Source: Halorubrum depositum (GTDB lineage Archaea; Halobacteriota; Halobacteria; Halobacteriales; Haloferacaceae). From it: 64,000 nt of DNA. Shown here one piece after another: positions 29,660 through 50,614 of this stretch. The notes below the pieces were generated by a model. That model searched no databases and was not told where the DNA came from. It was given only the letters and a program-made list of their open reading frames with translations. A program made the translations under genes and the position numbers. Each line of letters opens with the position of its first letter. Within the stretch, counting starts at the first letter, position 1. The DNA lies in NCBI RefSeq assembly GCF_007671725.1, contig NZ_VCNM01000003.1, positions 124,001 through 188,000 on the forward strand, written 5' to 3'.

Positions 29660-29683
29660 GCGGTCAACGGTATTAATAAGAAA

Positions 29684-29954
29684 GAATGCGGTGGCGCGCG
29701 CCTCCGAGTGGCCGACAGGCCACGAGGAGCGCGTGCGAGGGACGCGGCGAACGCGAGCGGCGAAGCCGCGAGCCGTGAGCCGCGAGGCTGGGGAGGCGTG
29801 AGGTGCGGTCGCGGTGCGGTCGGGTGGGACTCAAAGGGGCAGCCGGCGAAGCGGGCGCAGGCGACGTAAGCACCGCAGCGAGGGAGTGAGCGAAGCGAAC
29901 GACCGAGTGAGGCGCGCAGCGAGCGTGCGCCCGCTTCGCCGGCTGGGGCTTTGG
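29684..29954 (+). ncRNA. Dispersed structured repeat, copy A
   Basis: A 271-nt element homologous to 50311-50554. A TATA-like tattaataag (29671-29680) precedes it. It has a hairpin gtggcc-gaca-ggccac (29708-29723), a conserved ggctggggaggcgtgaggtgcggt block, a conserved caaaggggcag, and a 19-bp perfect long-range stem (29841-29859 with 29926-29944), ending in ctggggctttgg. The stem is preserved in copy B with different bases, so selection on base pairing is likely. It is probably a non-coding RNA, or otherwise a short non-autonomous repeat. The family's name and role are unknown to me. It occupies most of the 454-nt gap after ahcY. Confidence 0.6.
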
Positions 29955-30113
29955 CGGTGTTCACCGAGTCGTCGGCAGGAGCAATTTATAACCGATCGAC
30001 AGAGAGGCCGATCTCGTACAGCCCACCACCATCAACAACGGCGATGGATACCGACCACGGACACTGATCTGGGCCTCGCGCCCTTTTTGACCGACAACCA
30101 CGTACGAGTAGTA

Positions 30114-34104: not shown

Positions 34105-34178
34105 GCCGCCTTAGCTCAGACTGGGAGAGCACTCGACTGAAGATCGAGCTGTCCCCCGTTCAAATCGGGGAGGCGGCA
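34105..34178 (+). tRNA. tRNA-Phe (GAA)
   Basis: Complete 74-nt cloverleaf: acceptor GCCGCCT/AGGCGGC, D arm GCTC/GAGC, anticodon stem CTCGA/TCGAG with loop CTGAAGA giving anticodon GAA, T arm CCCCG-TTCAAAT-CGGGG, discriminator A. CCA is not encoded. Its 3' portion is repeated at 34285-34306 and, in degenerate form, in 34344-34434; a truncated relative occurs at 35835-35890. Confidence 0.96.
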
Positions 34179-34190
34179 TATTTCGAGACG

Positions 34191-34220
34191 GTGAGCGGAG
34201 CGAACCGTCGAGAAAACGAC
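34191..34220 (+). repeat. Direct repeat, left copy
   Basis: This 30-nt sequence starts 13 nt after tRNA-Phe and matches 37491-37520 at 28 of 30 positions (differences at positions 2 and 26). The two copies bracket about 3.3 kb holding the ParB-like and VWA genes. The motif is Gly/Arg-like GAGCGGAGCGA-rich, a style common in haloarchaeal spacers, so independent origin is possible. Confidence 0.55.
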
Positions 34221-34284
34221 GCCGAGCCGATTTGAGCACGGAAGTCGCAGCGCGCGAACGGAGTGAGCGCGATCGTCTTCCGGA

Positions 34285-34306
34285 GTTCAAATCGGGGAGG
34301 CGGCAT
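34285..34306 (+). repeat. Duplicated 3' end of tRNA-Phe (att-like)
   Basis: An exact 22-nt copy of 34158-34179 (T loop, T stem 3' strand and acceptor 3' strand of tRNA-Phe), 127 nt downstream. As with tRNA-Pro, this is the footprint expected when an element integrates at a tRNA 3' end. Confidence 0.75.
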
Positions 34307-34343
34307 TTTCTTCCGAAGCCTTCTGATGAGCTTCGGCCAACGA

Positions 34344-50251: not shown

Positions 50252-50310
50252 GCGGGCGGGATTCGATTATAAATAACGAGAAGGGTCGCGACGCCTTTTT
50301 ATAAATAGAC

Positions 50311-50554
50311 GAGTGCGGTGGCGCGCGCCTTCGAGTGGCCGATAGGCCACGAGGAGCGCGTGCGAGGGACGCGGCGACCGAAGGGAGCCGCGAGGCTGGG
50401 GAGGCGTGAGGTGCGGTTGCTGTGCGGTCGGGTGGGATTTCAAAGGGGCAGTCGCGAGGGCGAAGCACGGCGACGCAAGGACCGCAGGGAACGAGCGAAG
50501 CGAGTGACTGAGGACCGCAGCGAGCCGCGCGAGTCCTCGCGGCTGGGGCTTTGG
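50311..50554 (+). ncRNA. Dispersed structured repeat, copy B
   Basis: A 244-nt homolog of 29684-29954. It follows a TATA-like tttataaata (50298-50307) and has the hairpin gtggcc-gata-ggccac (50335-50350), only the loop base differing. A conserved middle and the caaaggggcag box follow. The closing stem pairs 50450-50460 with 50534-50544. Relative to copy A, five consecutive pairs of this stem (6-10) are changed on both sides with pairing kept, and two others are G-U. The 3' end is ctggggctttgg. A second copy of that end alone follows at 50597. Confidence 0.6.
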
Positions 50555-50596
50555 AGGAGTCCGCTGACGATCCGCAGTCAACCATGTATCGCCGAG

Positions 50597-50614
50597 CGGC
50601 TGGGGCTTTGGAGG
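50597..50614 (+). repeat. Extra copy of the repeat's 3' end
   Basis: An isolated copy of the element terminus (cggctggggctttggagg) lies 43 nt after copy B. It matches the last 12 conserved nt and the following aggagg. This suggests nested insertion or partial duplication at the element's 3' boundary. Confidence 0.55.

Follow-up and report, generated by a model that had tools for sequence, protein, structure and literature searches.

A dispersed non-coding element of the class Halobacteria that keeps its fold while its sequence changes

ERIC-type elements and other bacterial MITEs are structured, intergenic sequences of a hundred-odd base pairs devoid of coding capacity. Among other dispersed repeats, REPs measure 20-40 bp (PMC3733652), and the PATEs and SMRs of Haloquadratum walsbyi are haloarchaeal, non-coding and dispersed, with 52 bp PATEs that retain only the terminal parts (PMC3119063). 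The two loci considered here lie in a window of 64,000 nucleotides of the Halorubrum depositum genome (the whole stretch of DNA that was analyzed), and they are members of one dispersed non-coding family found across the class Halobacteria. No description of the motif or of the family was found in the literature (open-licence PMC papers), and the family has apparently been undescribed so far.

The element is non-coding and about 250-300 bp in size. Its body comprises, in this order, a hairpin containing a single tandem GA/GA step (P1), a second hairpin that is freely swapped or extended among copies (P2), a G-rich core formed by the near-invariant GAGGYTGGGGAGGYGTGAGG plus a variable GCGGT-rich stretch, and a single long hairpin running from CAAAG to CTTTG and combining Watson-Crick with tandem GA/GA steps (P3). 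Re-reading of the sequence confirmed the two copies of the initial annotation, A at 29684-29954 and B at 50311-50554, both on the + strand. In copy A the conserved body, as delimited by blastn, profiles and a covariance model of the element's 3' half (R1), occupies 29688-29954; within it, pairing and covariation across copies place P1 at 29694-29736, P2 is read from the sequence at 29743-29783, the near-invariant core GAGGCTGGGGAGGCGTGAGG, conserved in other genera too, lies at 29784-29803, and covariation, R1 and folding place P3 at 29832-29953. The corresponding body of copy B (blastn, R1) extends over 50315-50554, with P1 at 50321-50363 (covariation, folding), P2 at 50370-50391 (CGCGGC-GA-CC-GAA-GG-GA-GCCGC in the sequence), the core at 50392-50411 (profile, R1) and P3 at 50441-50553 (covariation, R1, folding). 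R1 scores 153 bits in copy A (29784-29954) and 155 bits in copy B (50392-50554), and at most 18 bits elsewhere in the window; the match with that score, at 34161-34312 (E 0.02), overlaps the end of a tRNA (34105-34178) and may be due to chance or represent a decayed copy.

The hairpin gtggcc-gaYa-ggccac is indeed present in both copies (29708-29723 and 50335-50350), as is the closing stem (29841 pairing with 29944 in A, 50450 with 50544 in B), which reaches 19 perfect bp in A. The gcggc-gaa-gccgc hairpin, regarded at first as an extra of copy A absent from B, does exist in A, but it is an extension of P2 (hence the longer form there), and B possesses the shorter form of the same hairpin. The 3' end first assigned to the repeat also needs to be moved: according to anchored profiles the family runs about 37 nt further, up to a second TTTATAA. 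In copy A this tail (29955-29991, + strand, ending TTTATAA) is common to copies at unrelated sites; in copy B the sequence and the profiles show the tail followed by a second, short unit ending GCGGCTGGGGCTTTGG (50555-50611, + strand). According to the same profiles, drawn from 155-167 copies, conservation begins abruptly at (T)GCGGTGGCGCG on the 5' side and declines gradually across the tail on the 3' side. One or more units of 54-57 bp, resembling the body minus everything between GCGG and CTGGGG, often lie 3' of the second TTTATAA. At two loci (L236 and L146) the tail unit occurs as two tandem copies, nearly or exactly identical, and at four others (L142, L150, L103 and L105) P2 forms an almost perfect palindrome with TTATAA or TTACAA at its centre, a motif similar in kind to the one flanking the element.

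A blastn search of the H. depositum genome with copy A gave 43 matches on contigs C1-C3 and on both strands, which bears out the description of the repeat as dispersed; copy B was among the sequences retrieved, with E = 3.3e-56, and these two figures exclude chance similarity. The number of two copies initially proposed, both of them real, turned out to be far too low, given that R1 finds 70 matches in this genome, about 40 of which are strong (at least 119 bits), the others being enlarged, truncated or weak. Three relatives harbor 67-109 R1 matches each. When the covariance-model search that had been suggested was extended to haloarchaeal genomes, matches were obtained in 307 out of 391 Halobacteria genomes and in 74 out of 86 genera, Halorubrum, Haloparvum, Halorussus, Halosimplex and Halobellus among them, with no match in the other 84 genomes; elsewhere in the phylum there was none in about 242 genomes, a number inferred from listing order. 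The copies of H. depositum are mostly 73-85% identical (blastn), so that the genome shows no sign of a recent burst. Some variants were observed in the arrangement of P3. Two copies of the same genome (L028, C1:139731-139951, and L029, C1:1407295-1407517) carry in P3 an extra module, bounded by GTGGTTCGA and TCGAACGAC and consisting of two perfect hairpins, which may be shared by about ten matches of 200-225 nt in that genome. In other genera, P3 was also found as head-to-head inverted pairs (L076, L093, L095, L097 and L100), with P1, P2 and the core either present or absent between them; at L095 and L100 inverted repeats are also formed by the flanks (AGTGTTCAG...CTGAACAGT).

The initial annotation had based its covarying stem on five double changes in the closing stem of A and B. 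These are mostly a register artefact of an ungapped comparison, copy A having one extra G-C pair; once a gap is introduced, a single genuine double change remains (A-U to G-C), plus a C-G/U-G change. Although the run of changes is mainly a register effect, the conclusion on covariation proved correct, on grounds that a comparison of two copies could not provide. Indeed, with more copies the covariation is overwhelming. In an alignment of 63 diverse copies the pairs with the strongest mutual information are nested and together make up P3, 32 of its 37 pairs are changed on both sides, 93.9% of the cells of the named structure are paired (28-40% when the partners are slid), and the covariation score is 0.420 versus 0.153 in shuffles. 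For P1, 95.3% of the cells are paired and 10 of the 17 pairs are changed on both sides. The same holds for 53 matches from other genera that were not used to build the model, with 90.8% of cells paired against 32-43% after sliding and both-side changes in all 37 pairs, although these matches were aligned to the model and their alignment therefore leans towards the structure. An absence of covariation, with arms varying as freely as the flanks, had been named beforehand as the outcome that would count against a selected structure, and the larger set of copies gave the opposite. The tandem GA/GA steps behave in a similar manner: the three of P3 are kept in 55, 59 and 58 of the 63 copies and the one of P1 in 53 of 59, the Watson-Crick pairs beside them covary while the GA/GA persists, and in 17-19 copies a Watson-Crick step has itself been replaced by GA/GA. 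Covariation thus supports a conserved fold, as is asked of a structured non-coding RNA. A precise fold has been kept while the sequence changes freely, and hence cells have been selecting for shape.

Concerning the molecule in which this shape is adopted, P1 and P3 are both present in the RNA structure of minimum energy predicted for each of the two window copies, and the z-scores of the RNA folding energy are -4.9 and -5.5 for the + strand and -1.9 for the minus strand. Over the 63 copies, 84% of the consensus pairs are recovered with RNA parameters and 62% with DNA parameters, the latter falling to 27% in the apical part. This comparison favors RNA rather than proving it, because DNA parameters may undervalue sheared G.A pairs, and the share of G.U pairs, which is low (2.8-4.2%), is not decisive between the two. 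Nevertheless, the persistence of the tandem GA/GA steps together with the folding energies points to the + strand folded as RNA, which is thus favored indirectly over single-stranded DNA.

The copies are intergenic and occur in both orientations, and the sites they occupy differ between species. The site between ahcY and nucS, for instance, is occupied in the window and in 11 of 37 related genomes that were read, where the element is whole, deprived of P3 or with an inverted loop, with one further remnant (L137); in the other genomes it is absent. Several of these ahcY-nucS intervals (L106, L108, L109, L111, L125, L131 and L133) contain a cassette resembling a VapB antitoxin and a PIN-domain VapC toxin, which in L106 is directly beside the element. 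When two genomes were compared at eight sites, five carried the element in one of them only (present in G028, absent from G004); no clean empty sites were found, the orthologous flanks of G004 being too diverged from those of G028 to show ends or a target-site duplication. Alongside intact copies there are truncated, inverted and internally deleted ones. P3 is lacking at L116, L117, L137 and L040, and its loop is inverted between the arms at L244 and at L136, the latter in comparison with L134 (sister genomes G018 and G013 for L134 and L136, respectively); the inversion in one of two sister genomes points to recombination at the hairpin.

Since sites turn over between species and decayed copies are common, the element behaves like a non-autonomous mobile element. 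We suggest, with a probability of roughly 0.5, that it is a mobile element of this kind, belonging to the class Halobacteria, whose new copies would arise from a single-stranded form, most probably RNA; a protein encoded at another locus would recognize the fold of that strand. A copy whose fold is lost would no longer spread and would then decay, which might explain how the fold can persist in the family as a whole while disappearing from individual copies; turnover and decay of copies, together with a family-wide fold, would be the pattern expected of an element selected for its competence to spread. As for the mover, H. depositum has neither of the usual candidates, TnpA of IS200/IS605 and reverse transcriptase; the latter (PF00078) was found in none of 12 carriers, H. 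depositum included, and retrons, group II introns and other retroelements were rejected on this basis. Two facts are not explained by mobility and would also be compatible with a host RNA or a chromosomal function: the lack of a candidate enzyme and the confinement to the main chromosome. Indeed, in three multi-replicon genomes (G007, G022 and G029) all of the 150 matches listed, weaker ones aside, are on the largest replicon, although rounded genome sizes would place about 20 of them on the others, a distribution unusual for an active mobile element. Plasmid records gave eight partial matches, only one of them covering at least 80% of the query, and the phage records and viral contigs scanned gave none.

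It is possible, albeit rather unlikely, that each copy is instead a gene for the same structured host RNA and that a host function, for example the binding of a protein or of the ribosome through the G-rich core, preserves the fold. The class-wide conservation of fold and core, a + strand RNA fold far more stable than shuffles, and the main-chromosome location of the listed copies would all agree with this, and so would the TATA-like boxes: of 155 copies, about half have a TTTATAA (up to one mismatch) in the 25 nt preceding their 5' end, compared with 3 in a control stretch. In copies A (tattaataa, 29671-29679, + strand) and B (50299-50307, + strand) about 8 nt separate the end of the box from the conserved 5' end (GCGGTGG), and in most box-bearing copies this distance is 5-9 nt. 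The haloarchaeal TATA box is centred near -27, and RNA synthesis would accordingly start about 15 nt inside the element, removing the 5' arm of P1, which covaries; the spacing is thus unfit for an RNA including that arm, and we rejected the box as a promoter. Moreover, such boxes are not general in other genera, and the high turnover of sites, the many decayed copies and the Halobacteria genomes without any match speak against a host gene.

A chromosomal DNA element similar to REPs or BIMEs, with palindromes that act as cruciforms or single strands, serve as binding sites for a nucleoid or topoisomerase protein and are enriched between convergent genes, appears unlikely. It would account for the intergenic location, for the preference of about 2:1 for convergent (60) over divergent (27) neighbors, for the main-chromosome location of the matches listed and for their absence from phage records and scanned viral contigs. 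However, the tandem GA/GA belongs to one strand only, the apical fold is the part that DNA parameters recover poorly, the copies are randomly placed along the chromosome with neither regular spacing nor replichore bias, and the element is far larger than a REP. Between co-directional genes there is no orientation bias (48 ++ and 41 --), and a role as 3' UTR or terminator was rejected on this ground.

Still less probable is an element derived from IS200/IS605 and moved as single-stranded DNA by TnpA, like the PATEs of Haloquadratum. Together with the TTTATAA at both ends, the 54-57 bp units, in which the core is deleted, recall the terminal-only PATEs of 52 bp (PMC3119063). Elements of this type would be expected to insert beside a fixed short target without duplicating it; a TTTATAA lies near both ends of the family's copies, and the empty sites are too diverged for comparison. 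What weakens this origin is the absence of TnpA: no Y1_Tnp (PF01797, the IS200-type TnpA) was found in H. depositum (G000) or in the carriers G002, G004, G015, G018, G027, G041 and G058, none of the copies seen carried a gene for TnpA or TnpB, and there is no strand bias along the chromosome. Finally, it is hardly credible that the changes in both arms are an artefact of template switching that perfects quasi-palindromes with no selection on the fold, since such events, recognizable in single copies (L110, with fully perfected arms, and L136, with an inverted loop), would convert GA/GA to GA/TC, whereas 87-94% of the copies keep GA/GA, flanked on either side by covarying pairs, and covariation of these pairs is also found in other genera.

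If a non-autonomous mobile element kept by its fold is the right interpretation, most haloarchaeal genera carry a large and apparently unannotated family, which offers a testable case of a dispersed element maintained by fold and not by sequence, with no known mover enzyme, and whose covariation record, with every P3 pair changed on both sides in other genera, is among the clearest that could be obtained. More tentatively, and with some doubt, it might represent a new RNA class specific to Haloarchaea, with several helices, serial tandem G.A steps and dozens to about 100 loci on the main chromosome, either spreading without TnpA and reverse transcriptase or having a chromosome-specific function. 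The covariance model allows immediate annotation, and some caution is advisable, since intergenic "palindromes" noticed at first look in haloarchaeal genomes could in fact be fragments of it.

How does the family compare with known systems? The Rfam search proposed at the outset gave nothing at gathering score (Rfam 15), which rejects membership in an Rfam 15 family, and at E up to 10 it gave chance-level matches only. The haloarchaeal omega RNAs of IS200/IS605 (RF02656/RF02657; PMC12558985) and HEARO are, like the RNA proposed here, structured and tied to mobile elements, but they gave no Rfam match even at E up to 10, and no adjacent TnpB or IscB was seen. ERIC and the other MITEs share with the element an intergenic location, a structure and the lack of coding capacity; the element differs in its RNA-like tandem GA motifs, and neither terminal inverted repeats, which classical MITEs share with a transposon, nor a target duplication was seen in Halorubrum, with P3 forming inverted pairs in other genera. 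REPs, BIMEs and REPINs with their RAYT transposases, bacterial parallels like ERIC, are likewise multi-copy, intergenic and palindromic and keep structure over sequence, but a GTAG/CGTC-tagged palindrome of REP size (PMC3733652) does not fit an element of about 250 bp with several helices in a genome devoid of Y1_Tnp, and this assignment was rejected on size, architecture and enzyme. The nearest published haloarchaeal elements are the PATEs which, with the SMRs, are non-coding and dispersed, contain palindromes and give rise to short terminal-only derivatives (PMC3119063). The element described here is set apart from them by having no connection to IS200/IS605 enzymes in H. depositum and by a multi-helix fold with tandem GA steps that is conserved class-wide.
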